A stretch of 64,000 nt of DNA, from assembly GCF_025790165.1 (NCBI RefSeq), contig NZ_CP094970.1, positions 1,922,001 through 1,986,000 of the forward strand, written 5' to 3'. Position numbers and translations under genes: made by a program. This stretch comes from Solicola gregarius (GTDB taxonomy: Bacteria; Actinomycetota; Actinomycetes; Propionibacteriales; Nocardioidaceae). A model generated the notes under the pieces. That model was given only the letters and a program-made list of their open reading frames with translations. It was not told where the DNA came from and did no database searches. Positions 1 through 6,148 of the stretch are shown in pieces (position 1 is the stretch's first letter; every line of letters starts with the position of its first letter).

Positions 1-527
1 GCCTCGCCGAGCAGGTCGTCGGAGAACATCTGCAGGTCGACGAGCACGCCGTCGGGTGCCTCGTCGTGCAGCGCCCGACCGCCATCTGTGACGTCGCGGA
101 TCGACAGCACTGCTTGCGTTTCGTCGAACTCGCAGAGCACAGCCTCCGCGGCGTCCTCCGCGAGGTAGCGCGACTCCGCGACGACGATCGCGACCGGCTC
201 GCTGGCGTACCGCACCCGGTCGTACGCGAGCAGCGGCATCTGCGTGGCGACGAACTCGGCGCGCTCGAGCGCGGCCGTGAGCTGCGGGTAGCCGAGGTCC
301 GCGGCGGTCAGCACCGCATGCACACCTGGCATGGCGAGCGCTTCGGACGCGTCGATCGACGCGATCCGGCCGGCAGCGATCGGGCTGCGCACGAACGTCG
401 CGTGGTAGGCGTGCGGATCAGCGATGTCGTCGACGAAGCGGCCGGCGCCCCGCAGCATCCGTGGGTCCTCGCGGCGGGGCAGCCGGTTGCCGACCCACCG
501 CTGTGGCTTCGCGGTCGATGCCGTCAC
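1..527 (-). CDS. Molybdenum hydroxylase large subunit (CoxL/XdhA type), N-terminal part
   Basis: This is the start of the large, molybdopterin-cytosine-dinucleotide-binding subunit of an aerobic CO dehydrogenase/xanthine dehydrogenase family enzyme; about 175 residues are in the window and the rest lies beyond base 1. The N-terminus shows the family pattern VGNRLPRREDPRMLRGAGRF, followed by a segment on taking up the substrate and a conserved run ending MPGVHAVLTAADL. The GTG start at 527 overlaps the TGA of the coxM gene (GTGA), so the two are translationally coupled. The active-site loop that separates true CO dehydrogenases from other hydroxylases is outside the window, so the substrate is unknown. 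Confidence 0.88.
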   Translation of the reverse strand, partial: MTASTAKPQRWVGNRLPRREDPRMLRGAGRFVDDIADPHAYHATFVRSPIAAGRIASIDASEALAMPGVHAVLTAADLGYPQLTAALERAEFVATQMPLLAYDRVRYASEPVAIVVAESRYLAEDAAEAVLCEFDETQAVLSIRDVTDGGRALHDEAPDGVLVDLQMFSDDLLGE

Positions 528-1390
528 GACGCACTCCTGGCGTACGCCTCGGCGAGTGCTCGCGTCGTGAGCGTCTCGACCAGATGTCGGCGGTAGTGCT
601 CGTCGCCGTGTACATCACTTGTCGGTCGGATCGCCGCGGCTGCACACCGGGCGGCCTCGGCCCAGACGGACTCGGAGGGCTCCGCGCCGTCGACGATCGC
701 CTCGGCCTCAGCGACCCGTAACGGCTCCGTGGCGACGCCGCCGAGGACGATCCCGACGTCGCTGCATCGGCCGTCGACCACGTCGAACGCCACGGCCGCC
801 GCCGCGATCGCGAAGTCGCCGCGACGGCGCGCGTACTCGGTGAGGGCTCCGTACGGGCGGGGCCGGTTGAAGCGGGTCTCGACGACGAACTCGTTCGGCT
901 CGGCGGCCGTGGTCAGGAAGCCGGTGAACCAGTCGGCGCTCGCGACCCGACGTGTGCCACGCTGTCCGAGGACGACGATGTCGGCGTCGAAGAGGCGCGC
1001 GAGCAGGCACCATTCGGCGGTGGGATCGGAGTGCGCGATGCTGCCGCCGACGGTGCCGCGCGAGCGGATCGGATAGTGGCCGATCCAGCGCGCGGCGCGG
1101 GGCAGCAGGTCGAAGCCGTCGCGTACCTCAGGCGCCCTGCTCGTCTCGAGCGTGCGGTGGCGGGTGAGGGCGCCGACGCAGAGGGCGTCACCGTCGCGGC
1201 GGATGTAGTCGAGACCCTTGACCCGGTTGATGTCCACCAGCGCGCTCGGCCGGGCCAGGCGGAAGTTCAGCATCGGCGCGAGGGACTGGCCGCCGGCGAG
1301 GACCTTCGCCTCGTCGCCGAGCTCGGTCAGCAACGCGACGACCTCCTCGGACAGGTACGCCCGGTGGTACTCGAACGGCGCTGGTTTCAC
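524..1390 (-). CDS. FAD-binding medium subunit of molybdenum hydroxylase (CoxM type)
   Basis: The 288-residue protein is the FAD subunit that passes electrons from the iron-sulfur subunit to a quinone or NAD in CoxLMS-type hydroxylases. Both FAD-binding motifs are present: AGGQSL at residues 32-37 and TVGGS at 113-117. Length matches the family. The GTG start at 1390 has an AAGGGG Shine-Dalgarno sequence. It heads an operon with coxL downstream. No small [2Fe-2S] subunit (coxS) is seen between them, so coxS must follow coxL outside the window or be encoded elsewhere. Whether this is a real CO dehydrogenase cannot be told from this subunit. Confidence 0.92.
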   Translation of the reverse strand: MKPAPFEYHRAYLSEEVVALLTELGDEAKVLAGGQSLAPMLNFRLARPSALVDINRVKGLDYIRRDGDALCVGALTRHRTLETSRAPEVRDGFDLLPRAARWIGHYPIRSRGTVGGSIAHSDPTAEWCLLARLFDADIVVLGQRGTRRVASADWFTGFLTTAAEPNEFVVETRFNRPRPYGALTEYARRRGDFAIAAAAVAFDVVDGRCSDVGIVLGGVATEPLRVAEAEAIVDGAEPSESVWAEAARCAAAAIRPTSDVHGDEHYRRHLVETLTTRALAEAYARSAS

Positions 1391-1413: not shown

Positions 1414-1427
1414 TGATATACCATATC
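1414..1427. promoter_or_regulatory. Operator-like inverted repeat between coxM and the crotonase gene
   Basis: The divergent promoter region contains GATAT-ACC-ATATC, an inverted repeat at 1415-1427. The 10-mer TGATATACCA (1414-1423) is repeated exactly at 2291-2300 before the SDR gene. The pattern resembles GntR-family sites, but no regulator gene for it is in the window. Binding is an inference. Confidence 0.5.
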
Positions 1428-1471: not shown

Positions 1472-2161
1472 ATGAGTGATCTACGCGTCGACCGACCGGC
1501 CGCGCTGGCCGGAGCGACGCGGGTGCTGATCGACCGGCCCGCGCGTCGCAACGCGCTCACGTACGAGACGGTGCGCGAGCTCCACGATCTCCTGGGCGAC
1601 ACCTCCCACGGCACCCTCGTACTCGGCAGCGCGAGCGACGGAATCTTCAGCGCGGGCGCCGACCTCGACACCGACGACGACACGCGTACGCGACTCTCGG
1701 ACCTGCTGTACGCATGCTACGAGCGCATCGTGACGCGGCCCGGGATCGTGCTCGCGGTCGTCGACGGCCCGGCGGTCGGCGGCGGTGCGCAACTGTGCGC
1801 GGCGGCCGACCTGCGGATCGCGTCGAGTCGCGCTCGGTGGCGCTGGCTCGGGCCCGGCCACGGCCTCGCGGTTGGTGCGTGGATCCTGCCCGATCTGATC
1901 GGCCGCTCGCTCGGACTCGAACTCACGCTCACCGGGCGCTGGCTGGGCGCCGACGAGGCGGTACGCAGCGGTTTCGTCGGCGAGCTCCACGACGACCCGT
2001 GGGCGCGTACGCGCGAGGTCGCGGCCGGGCTCGCGACCGCCGACGCCGACGCGCTCGCCCGGACCAAGCAGGCCGCGACCCGGCCGTACCTGCTCGATGC
2101 GCTGAGCGAGGAGCGCCGCCGCAACGCCGCGGCGTGGTCCGGCCGCGCGCCGGAGCGATGA
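1472..2161 (+). CDS. Enoyl-CoA hydratase/isomerase (crotonase) family protein
   Basis: The 229-residue protein has the crotonase fold signature GPAVGGGAQLCAAADLRIA, which forms the CoA oxyanion hole, and is somewhat shorter than the usual 250-270 residues. The start at 1472 (MSDLRVDR) is chosen because upstream in-frame codons run into the divergent coxM promoter. Two acidic catalytic positions look replaced: the GGGCEL glutamate is Gln (GGGAQL), and the later FxxPE glutamate is absent (ARWRWLGPG). So simple hydration of an enoyl-CoA is doubtful and an isomerase, hydrolase or other crotonase reaction is possible. It is divergent from coxM and precedes the SDR-coxG-hydrolase unit, suggesting one catabolic pathway. 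Confidence 0.8.
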   Translation: MSDLRVDRPAALAGATRVLIDRPARRNALTYETVRELHDLLGDTSHGTLVLGSASDGIFSAGADLDTDDDTRTRLSDLLYACYERIVTRPGIVLAVVDGPAVGGGAQLCAAADLRIASSRARWRWLGPGHGLAVGAWILPDLIGRSLGLELTLTGRWLGADEAVRSGFVGELHDDPWARTREVAAGLATADADALARTKQAATRPYLLDALSEERRRNAAAWSGRAPER

Positions 2162-2166
2162 GACCG

Positions 2167-2202
2167 GTGGATGTTTACCATGTTAACATGGTAAACATCC
2201 AC
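2167..2202. repeat. Perfect 36-bp palindrome after the crotonase gene
   Basis: Bases 2167-2184 are the exact reverse complement of 2185-2202, with GTTAAC at the centre (2182-2187) and no spacer. It starts 6 bp after the crotonase stop. The arms are AT-rich (for example TTTACCATG) in a GC-rich region. No T-run follows. It may be a terminator hairpin or a regulator site; the sequence alone does not decide. Confidence 0.75.
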
Positions 2203-2264
2203 TGTGCACGGCGAATTCGGCATGCAGAGCGGACGCTTGCCGCGCAGAGTTCGGCCACCGACCC

Positions 2265-2300
2265 TTGACGCACCCGGGTACAACGGTATTTGATATACCA
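2265..2300 (+). promoter_or_regulatory. Promoter and operator of the SDR-coxG-hydrolase unit
   Basis: A TTGACG box (2265-2270) is followed 16 nt later by TATTTG (2287-2292) as a possible -10. The -10 is covered by an inverted repeat GGTAT-N5-ATACC (2285-2299) that contains the 10-mer TGATATACCA also found at 1414-1423. A repressor bound here would block the promoter; this is inference. Confidence 0.5.
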
Positions 2301-2320
2301 ATCGGCTGAAGGAGGACGAG

Positions 2321-3118
2321 ATGGACCTGAACCTGACCGACAAGATCGCGTTCGTCACCGGCGCAAGCAAGGGCATCGGACGCGAGGTCGCGGCCCGTCT
2401 GGCCTCCGAGGGGTGCGACGTCGTCATCACGGCCCGCGGCCAGGAGGATCTGGAGCAGACCGCGACCGAGCTCGCCGCCACGAGCGGCCGCAAGGTCGTC
2501 GCGCAGGCCGGCGACATGAGCAGCCCGGACGACGTCGACCGCTGCGTACGAGCGGCGCTCGATGCCTTCGGTCGGATCGACATCCTGGTGACCTGCGCCG
2601 GCAGCTCACCCGGCGGCCTCCTCGAGGAGCTCACCGAGGACCAGTGGATGCAGAGCCTGAATCTCAAGTTCATGGGCTACGTACGCACGGTGCGCTCGGT
2701 CGTACCGCACATGGTCGAGCGCGGCTCGGGCTCGATCGTGCTCGTGGTCGGCAACGACGGCCTCAAGCCGAGCTTCTGGGAGATGACCGCGGGCGCCGCG
2801 AACGCCGCCGATCTCAACTTCGCCTCGTCGATCGCCGACCAGTACGGCCCCAAGGGCGTCCGCGTCAACACCGTCAACCCGGGTCCGGTCGACACCGACC
2901 GCTGGGACGGCCTCGAGAAGGCGTTCGCGCGCGATATGGGCGTCGACCAGGCGGAGGCCCGCCGACGTGCGGAGGCGTCGATCCCGTTCGGGCGCATCAC
3001 CCGCCCCGACGAAGTCGCCGCGCTCGTCGCCTTCGTCGCGTCCGACCTCGCGGCGAGCGTGCACGGGGCGCACATCCCCATCGACGGTGCTCAACGCAAG
3101 GCCCTGATGGAGCGCTAG
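2321..3118 (+). CDS. SDR-family oxidoreductase with non-canonical active site
   Basis: The 265-residue protein has the Rossmann motif TGASKGIG near residues 14-21, the VTCAGSS segment in place of NNAG, and the C-terminal GVRVNTVNPGPVDTD region, so it is an NAD(P)-dependent short-chain dehydrogenase. The start at 2321 has a GGAGGA ribosome site. Counting back from GVRVN, the positions of the catalytic YxxxK are Ala and Asn (AGAANAADLNF). This matches a minor SDR group with an xAGxxNAA pattern rather than classical enzymes, so the chemistry may differ. It is followed directly by coxG (TAGTG overlap). Confidence 0.85.
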   Translation: MDLNLTDKIAFVTGASKGIGREVAARLASEGCDVVITARGQEDLEQTATELAATSGRKVVAQAGDMSSPDDVDRCVRAALDAFGRIDILVTCAGSSPGGLLEELTEDQWMQSLNLKFMGYVRTVRSVVPHMVERGSGSIVLVVGNDGLKPSFWEMTAGAANAADLNFASSIADQYGPKGVRVNTVNPGPVDTDRWDGLEKAFARDMGVDQAEARRRAEASIPFGRITRPDEVAALVAFVASDLAASVHGAHIPIDGAQRKALMER

Positions 3119-3753
3119 TGAAGCTCACCAACTCGTTTCGGATCGAGCGGCCCGCGGCCGAGGTGTTCGACGCGTTCCTCGACATCGAGCGGGTAGCCAC
3201 CTGTATGCCGGGCGCCCGCTTGGTCGGACATCCCGCCGAGGACACGTACGACGGCGAGGTCTCCGTCAAGGTCGGGCCGCTCGGCGTCTCGTACGCGGGC
3301 CAGCTGAAGGTGCTCGAGGTCGAGCACGCCGAGCGCCGGCTGACGATGCGCGCCAAGGGTCGCGAGCAGCGCGGTGCCGGCAACGCCGACGCGTACGTCA
3401 TCGCGCACGTGCGAGACGATGACGGCGGCACGCTCGTCGAGATCGACACCGAGCTGAACATCCGCGGCAAGGTCGCGCAGTTCGGCCGCGGCGTGATCGG
3501 TGAGGTCACCGACGGAGTGATGCAGGCCTTCGCCGCCAACGTGGCTGACCTGCTCTCCGGCAAACGTGCTCCCGTCGGCGTCCCATCGGCCACCACCGAG
3601 ACGCCGGAACCCGTCGCGGCCGAGCAGAGTCTCGACGCCTGGCGGATGCTCGTACGCCCCGTGCTGCAACGTCATGCGAGCGAGATCGCGACGGTCGCCC
3701 TTGCCGGTGTCGCCGCATACGTCGGCGCGCGGCTCGGTACGCGCCGCCGCTAG
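3118..3753 (+). CDS. CoxG-type SRPBCC membrane-anchored protein
   Basis: The 211-residue protein is a CoxG family member: an SRPBCC (START-like) domain over the first 150 residues beginning KLTNSFRIERPAAEVFDAF, then a linker and a hydrophobic helix near the C-terminus (VALAGVAAYVGARLG) ending in Arg residues. CoxG proteins are known to help anchor CO dehydrogenase-type hydroxylases to the membrane. The GTG start at 3118 overlaps the TAG stop of the SDR gene, so the genes are coupled. Its presence supports linking this operon to the divergent coxML genes. Confidence 0.85.
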   Translation: MKLTNSFRIERPAAEVFDAFLDIERVATCMPGARLVGHPAEDTYDGEVSVKVGPLGVSYAGQLKVLEVEHAERRLTMRAKGREQRGAGNADAYVIAHVRDDDGGTLVEIDTELNIRGKVAQFGRGVIGEVTDGVMQAFAANVADLLSGKRAPVGVPSATTETPEPVAAEQSLDAWRMLVRPVLQRHASEIATVALAGVAAYVGARLGTRRR

Positions 3754-3767
3754 TCCAAGGAGGAACC

Positions 3768-6148
<2,381 letters not shown>

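Follow-up and report, generated by a model that had tools for sequence, protein, structure and literature searches.

The reductive nicotinate route of Azorhizobium and the isonicotinate route of Mycobacterium INA1 proceed by molybdenum (Mo) hydroxylation, reduction of a ring C=C bond, and ring opening to a CoA ester or to glutarate/glutaryl-CoA. The furoyl-CoA (Hmf) pathway combines a ligase, an Mo enzyme, and a crotonase and is not known to need an SDR or amidase. BadI and HmfE are crotonases that act as ring hydrolases, and in the crotonase family glycine-rich stretches of the FSAGADL and VGGGAQ types form the oxyanion hole. EchA6 of M. tuberculosis has been described as a crotonase without catalytic residues and was proposed to shuttle acyl-CoA (PMC5964476). 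Among SDRs, AerF of Microcystis has been titled an alkenal double bond reductase, and BacG (YwfH) of Bacillus makes H4HPP from the H2HPP precursor; both have solved structures and act as reductases of conjugated C=C bonds, and our literature search found no paper on the mechanism of BacG. In CO oxidizers, electrons are proposed to reach quinone from CO dehydrogenase by way of CoxG, and the CO-oxidizing CoxL carries the active-site motif AYXCSFR (PMC13240472).

We analyzed a window of 64,000 nucleotides, the whole stretch of DNA considered here, from Solicola gregarius, in which a crotonase gene and an SDR gene lie between genes for Mo hydroxylase subunits and for a CoxG-like protein (Table 1). 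Routine annotation would label the pair as enoyl-CoA hydratase and oxidoreductase, hinting at beta-oxidation, and this is contradicted by their residues. The best explanation, which we hold tentatively and with slightly less than even confidence, is that both proteins are functional and serve a single dedicated catabolic pathway whose genes are regulated together, and that the genes are not decayed. Each is a member of a recognizable atypical class, and the new part is an undescribed cluster and regulon using both. The cluster is probably an uncharacterized pathway for the breakdown of what we take to be a nitrogen-containing ring compound.

Table 1. Positions in the window of the genes and putative regulatory elements discussed in the text
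Feature	Positions	Strand	Basis
CoxL2, N-terminal part of a CoxL-type molybdenum hydroxylase large subunit	3-527	-	NCBIfam CODH/xanthine dehydrogenase large-subunit models
CoxM-type FAD subunit of Mo hydroxylase, divergent from crotonase	524-1390	-	NF041019, 233.6 bits, and XdhB models
Putative operator TGATATACCA, between CoxM and crotonase	1414-1423	+	Word counts genome-wide
Crotonase-fold protein without both catalytic Glu (Gln107, Gly127), EchA6-like; 229 aa	1472 (ATG)-2161 (stop)	+	
Perfect 36-bp palindrome GTGGATGTTTACCATGTT/AACATGGTAAACATCCAC, crotonase-SDR gap	2167-2202		
Putative operator TGATATACCA, upstream of SDR	2291-2300	+	Word counts genome-wide
SDR of the K-G-x-N class (Lys116, Gly144, Ala157, Asn161), AerF/BacG-like, predicted C=C reductase; 265 aa	2321 (ATG)-3118 (stop)	+	
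CoxG-like protein, predicted link from Mo hydroxylase to quinone pool	3118-3753	+	PF06240, 68.8 bits (cut-off 22.2)
Alpha/beta hydrolase, Ser-Asp-His signatures intact, predicted ring/lactam hydrolase	3768-4649	+	

The cluster was conserved in 6 actinobacterial genomes, namely, the window's genome (G000), its sister of the same genus (G001), G829 of the same family, the more distant G417 and G723, and G120. The crotonase gene was identified in 6 genomes, all with the residue state described below. The Pfam model ECH_1 placed the product in the crotonase superfamily with 83.5 bits (curated cut-off 27), and the FSAGADL and VGGGAQ stretches are retained. The 2 catalytic Glu residues of enoyl-CoA hydratase are both absent, with their replacements conserved in orthologues. 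The earlier note had claimed that Gln in GGGAQL replaces a catalytic Glu and that the second Glu is lacking; in our alignment of 28 homologues from related genomes, 4 orthologues, and 3 plasmid-borne homologues, Gln107 in GPAVGGGAQLCAAADLRIA indeed occupies the column of the first Glu, and Gly127, in the shortened loop WLGPGHGLAVGAW, that of the second as defined by hydratase-type homologues. Q107 and the string GPGHGL are invariant across the orthologues (approximately 43-76% identity), including those of G417 and G723, and both are also kept in the G829 orthologue (49% identity); His130 and Trp137 are likewise invariant. Between the window genome and the sister genome, dN was approximately 0.19 and dS approximately 0.71. 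Degenerate genes or sequencing errors, for which nothing speaks besides the absent residues, were ruled out by residue conservation in 6 genomes and by purifying selection, and we assign them a negligible probability. In the same alignment, many crotonases of related genomes are missing at least 1 Glu, some of them both, so loss of Glu by itself is not rare.

In sequence, the crotonase resembles EchA6, a known non-catalytic acyl-CoA binder. EchA6 was the best PDB match of a profile built from 5 orthologues (E 4e-31), and the 2 proteins (EchA6: PDB 5dtw, 3he2) share Gln in GxGxQL (GAGLQL in EchA6), the absence of the second Glu, and a GLA-x-x-W loop. They differ in that the loop after Trp is 3 residues shorter in the crotonase, His130 stands where the EchA6 side has Tyr or Asn, and the gene context is not the same. 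In the tree, the crotonase forms a clade separate from that of EchA6; each clade is fully supported, and the two are neighbors at 78/90, a moderate join, so a carrier role of the crotonase is not established by it. The AlphaFold model of the crotonase had a pLDDT of 89.9 and matched 4lk5 with Z 27.4 and rmsd 2.7 over 218 aligned residues. EchA6 ranked 50th by fold (Z 24.6), in ranks tied with many ordinary relatives, and given these ties the rank does not exclude kinship with EchA6.

An alternative that we consider possible but less likely is that the ligase acts early to give a heterocyclic acyl-CoA and that the Glu-less crotonase, in the manner of BadI and HmfE, itself opens the ring or hydrolyzes the CoA ester of this compound, with the alpha/beta hydrolase acting on a later intermediate. 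The invariant His130 and Trp137 would fit such a role, as would the position of the crotonase gene next to Mo hydroxylase genes in G000, G001, and the contig L035 and the occurrence of Glu-less crotonases near members of the alpha/beta hydrolase family in Paraburkholderia, Rhodococcus PD630, and Sphingobium CFD-2. Against it, EchA6, the closest relative with a solved structure, is non-catalytic, no compensating acid/base residue could be placed in space, and the loop is poorly predicted in the model (block pLDDT 66).

The SDR (adh_short, 169 bits) retains the cofactor motif TGxxxGxG as TGASKGIG at residues 13-20. Alignment confirmed the claim that Ala and Asn stand in place of YxxxK, that position reading A157-G-A-A-N161. 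Beyond what the earlier note had described, the tetrad Asn is replaced by Lys116 and the tetrad Ser by Gly144, and the Asn-Ser-Tyr-Lys tetrad of classical SDRs is thus entirely lost. We searched the sequence alignments of both proteins for a functional Glu or Tyr/Lys at equivalent positions and identified none, Lys116 lying in the column of the tetrad Asn and not in that of Lys. A joint alignment of 19 SDRs of the window's genome with AerF (PDB 6jh7, 6jha, and 6jhb), BacG (PDB 3u49), and homologues revealed the tetrad columns Lys-Gly-x-Asn (K-G-x-N) as common to the SDR, AerF, BacG, and orthologues, and these columns were also found in proteins of Paraburkholderia 22B1P, Methylobacterium, Rhizobium, Tistrella, Haladaptatus, and Rhodococcus. 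All K-G-x-N proteins fall on the same side of a branch that is supported at 96/88 and was recovered in 98% of bootstrap trees. Elsewhere in the window's genome, there is 1 further K-G-x-N SDR (L095), 2 SDRs (L096 and L098) lack YxxxK in other ways, and the other 16 carry YxxxK. L095 (G000:C1:474570-475450) is nearer to the type found in Methylobacterium and Rhizobium.

By sequence, AerF is the nearest solved protein to the SDR (about 35% identity), and it also came first in the fold ranking of the SDR model (Z 38.2, rmsd 1.5, 260 aligned residues), tied within 1 Z with others, and the fold ranks are shared with many ordinary relatives. Membership in this clade predicts conjugate addition of hydride to a C=C bond by the SDR, and the K-G-x-N signature offers a simple rule for recognizing SDRs that are probable C=C reductases. 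The setting differs from that of AerF and BacG, which serve the synthesis of antibiotic or peptide precursors, whereas this predicted reductase is encoded alongside Mo hydroxylases in a cluster of catabolic type. Between the window and sister genomes, the SDR is under strong constraint (dN approximately 0.05, dS approximately 0.71) and is the more constrained of the 2 proteins compared. This constraint, together with the presence of 2 proteins described as active reductases on the K-G-x-N branch, argues against a reading in which the crotonase and the SDR are both non-catalytic and serve binding, scaffold, or regulatory roles; the absence of both textbook catalytic sets and the precedent of EchA6 speak for that reading, which we judge improbable.

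To the left of the crotonase and divergent from it are CoxM and 2 CoxL-type large subunits with 1 CoxS between the CoxLs; the CoxL2 gene runs past the window start and is present in full in L036. Beyond these, still farther left, the genome encodes a GntR regulator, a transporter assigned by eye to the sodium:solute type, an amidase, and an acyl-CoA ligase. The large subunits keep GxGEGG, the amidase keeps GGSSGG, and the alpha/beta hydrolase keeps its signatures (GNSMG...GDED...SGHVTNL). The CoxG-like protein matched CoxG of aerobic CO dehydrogenase (PDB 8uds) with E 3.4e-29 and likewise has a full-length COXG domain and is encoded with CoxL, CoxM, and CoxS. In contrast to that system, its partner CoxLs read GTYRAPGR and, in CoxL2, APYRGVSR, without AYXCSFR, the active-site motif of form I Mo-CO dehydrogenase. 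A CO dehydrogenase operon was ruled out on these motifs.

The proposal that the crotonase and the SDR form an operon with CoxG held for the SDR, whose stop codon TAG (3116-3118) overlaps the GTG start of CoxG (3118), so that these 2 genes form a translationally coupled operon. It is less secure for the crotonase, which lies upstream across a gap of 159 bp holding the palindrome and the second operator copy, and which may therefore have its own promoter. The palindrome was not present in the matching crotonase-SDR gap of G001.

We counted the occurrences of TGATATACCA genome-wide and identified only 3 in the 4.9-Mb genome of the window, all 3 within the cluster, where they precede crotonase/CoxM, the SDR, and the transporter, respectively. 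The sister genome has 5 occurrences, again all (5/5) in the cluster, at the equivalents of these 3 places, at a second place beside the transporter, and before the ligase. The reversed control word had 0 occurrences. Because all genome-wide occurrences lie within the cluster, the flanked genes appear to form one regulon, and we infer that the GntR protein of the cluster binds the word. A cluster-specific operator that delimits the regulon makes the question of the substrate directly testable by induction. The shared operator, which links the 2 genes to the ligase/amidase region and the transporter, also weighs against an ordinary beta-oxidation-like hydratase and 3-hydroxyacyl-CoA dehydrogenase in a CO-dehydrogenase-linked operon. 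The family labels alone (ECH, SDR, CoxG, and CoxLM) would suggest such an operon, but with both catalytic sets gone and AYXCSFR absent from the Mo large subunits we consider it highly improbable. The earlier note had proposed unusual chemistry instead of simple beta-oxidation steps. This stands insofar as the textbook mechanisms are impossible and the context of Mo hydroxylases, ligase, amidase, ring-type hydrolase, and CoxG is not that of beta-oxidation; the 2 proteins are, however, no novel oddities, with the SDR falling in the AerF/BacG class and the crotonase sharing the state of EchA6.

The gene set, including the ligase and the Mo hydroxylases, suggests an order of hydroxylation, C=C reduction, hydrolysis, and deamidation leading to glutaryl-CoA, and beyond the gene identifications we infer every step, including the reaction of the crotonase. 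A pyridine-type N-heteroaromatic compound would be hydroxylated by the Mo enzymes, whose electrons would pass to quinone via CoxG. The SDR would then reduce a C=C bond of the oxo-ring by adding hydride from NAD(P)H to the conjugated bond, as in AerF and BacG, and would not interconvert alcohol and ketone; for such an addition, the Tyr/Lys proton relay would not be needed. The resulting lactam or imide would be opened by the hydrolase, the amide cleaved by the amidase, and the acid activated by the ligase, giving glutaryl-CoA and crotonyl-CoA for central metabolism, with the ligase acting either on the ring acid or on glutarate. The crotonase would bind an acyl-CoA of the pathway and not act as a hydratase. 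It may only hold and hand over a reactive ester, as proposed for EchA6, or may assist a reaction needing only oxyanion stabilization, perhaps with the invariant His130.

The logic is similar to that of the nicotinate and isonicotinate routes described above, with no common gene identified; our literature search returned no matching paper on the genes of either route. To our knowledge, reductive N-heteroaromatic chemistry is known mainly from older biochemistry, and if the proposed route is true, genes would be assigned to it. The furoyl-CoA pathway shares the ligase, the Mo enzyme, and the crotonase and was set aside, as it is not known to need an SDR or amidase. In its most specific form, the proposal is of an undescribed aerobic reductive pathway for a pyridine-type ring, in which Mo hydroxylases, a K-G-x-N SDR, and lactam/imide hydrolases lead to glutarate, a Glu-less crotonase provides a new CoA-dependent step, and one 10-bp operator controls the genes; we regard this form as conceivable but doubtful.

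Conserved partners across the cluster genomes are the Mo hydroxylase subunits, CoxG, the acyl-CoA ligase, and a hydrolase of either the alpha/beta or the cyclase type. An amidase is present in most loci and follows the ligase in G000, G001, G120, and G829 (the amidase and some crotonases were located by tblastn). The G120 cluster is split over 2 contigs, of which contig 26 is identical to L035 (MAG DX1.bin54, also L093); a contig search with the crotonase returned this locus only. Within the G417 family, 2 of 39 genomes have the crotonase, and the SDR was found in these same 2. A sample of 391 genomes from the order to which the window belongs added only G829 at E up to 1e-70, which indicates that the cluster is rare and scattered. 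A partial cluster was identified in G538 (L077:3873-6339), where CoxL2 directly meets a 3' fragment of the SDR gene in head-to-head orientation. The intervening CoxM, crotonase, and ligase are absent, which reflects either a deletion or an artefact of assembly.

In G120, G723, G538, and G829, the cluster comes with genes resembling that of glutaryl-CoA dehydrogenase, and none was found in the stretches read around the clusters of G000, G001, and G417. Over the full length, the closest solved relatives of the G829 acyl-CoA dehydrogenase are glutaryl-CoA dehydrogenases (3swo, E 2.6e-186; 3sf6, 5.4e-183; 1siq, 4.7e-107), and the proteins of G120 and G723 score below the cut-off of the NCBIfam equivalog NF045552. 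G417 and G723 encode a cyclase that has isatin hydrolase and kynurenine formamidase among its relatives, and the stretch read in each of these 2 genomes yielded no alpha/beta hydrolase relative. The G829 cluster (L123:3590-14063) has 1 CoxL instead of 2 in the stretch read and an ACMSD-family, decarboxylase-like amidohydrolase, so details differ between genomes. This cluster also carries a BMP-type ABC transporter, like that of the Paraburkholderia 22B1P cluster. Near the G417 cluster (L075:1-3807), we identified an HpaB-type flavin monooxygenase, a flavin-reductase/GntR fusion-like protein, and a RidA-like protein, which could contribute further steps for this substrate or one related to it.

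Relatives of the alpha/beta hydrolase (44-55% identity) were found near K-G-x-N SDRs in Paraburkholderia, Methylobacterium, Rhizobium, Tistrella, Rhodococcus, and Neorhizobium; no K-G-x-N SDR was found beside a relative of the hydrolase in the loci of Bradyrhizobium, Microvirga, and Sphingobium. These recurring pairs, with those of hydrolase and Glu-less crotonase noted above, argue that the hydrolase, the SDR, and the crotonase handle intermediates that follow one another. On the Sphingobium CFD-2 plasmid (L074:10001-12900), the hydrolase relative lies directly beside a Glu-less crotonase and a CoA transferase. Further, plasmid clusters of Methylobacterium (L070:12014-16132), Rhizobium (L071:10047-15553), and Tistrella (L072:10002-14249) combine a K-G-x-N SDR and an aminotransferase with a member of the alpha/beta hydrolase family and an M20 hydantoinase/carbamoylase, and that of Rhizobium adjoins nucleoside uptake and salvage genes. 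These 3 clusters could encode an SDR-based reductive pyrimidine-like route.
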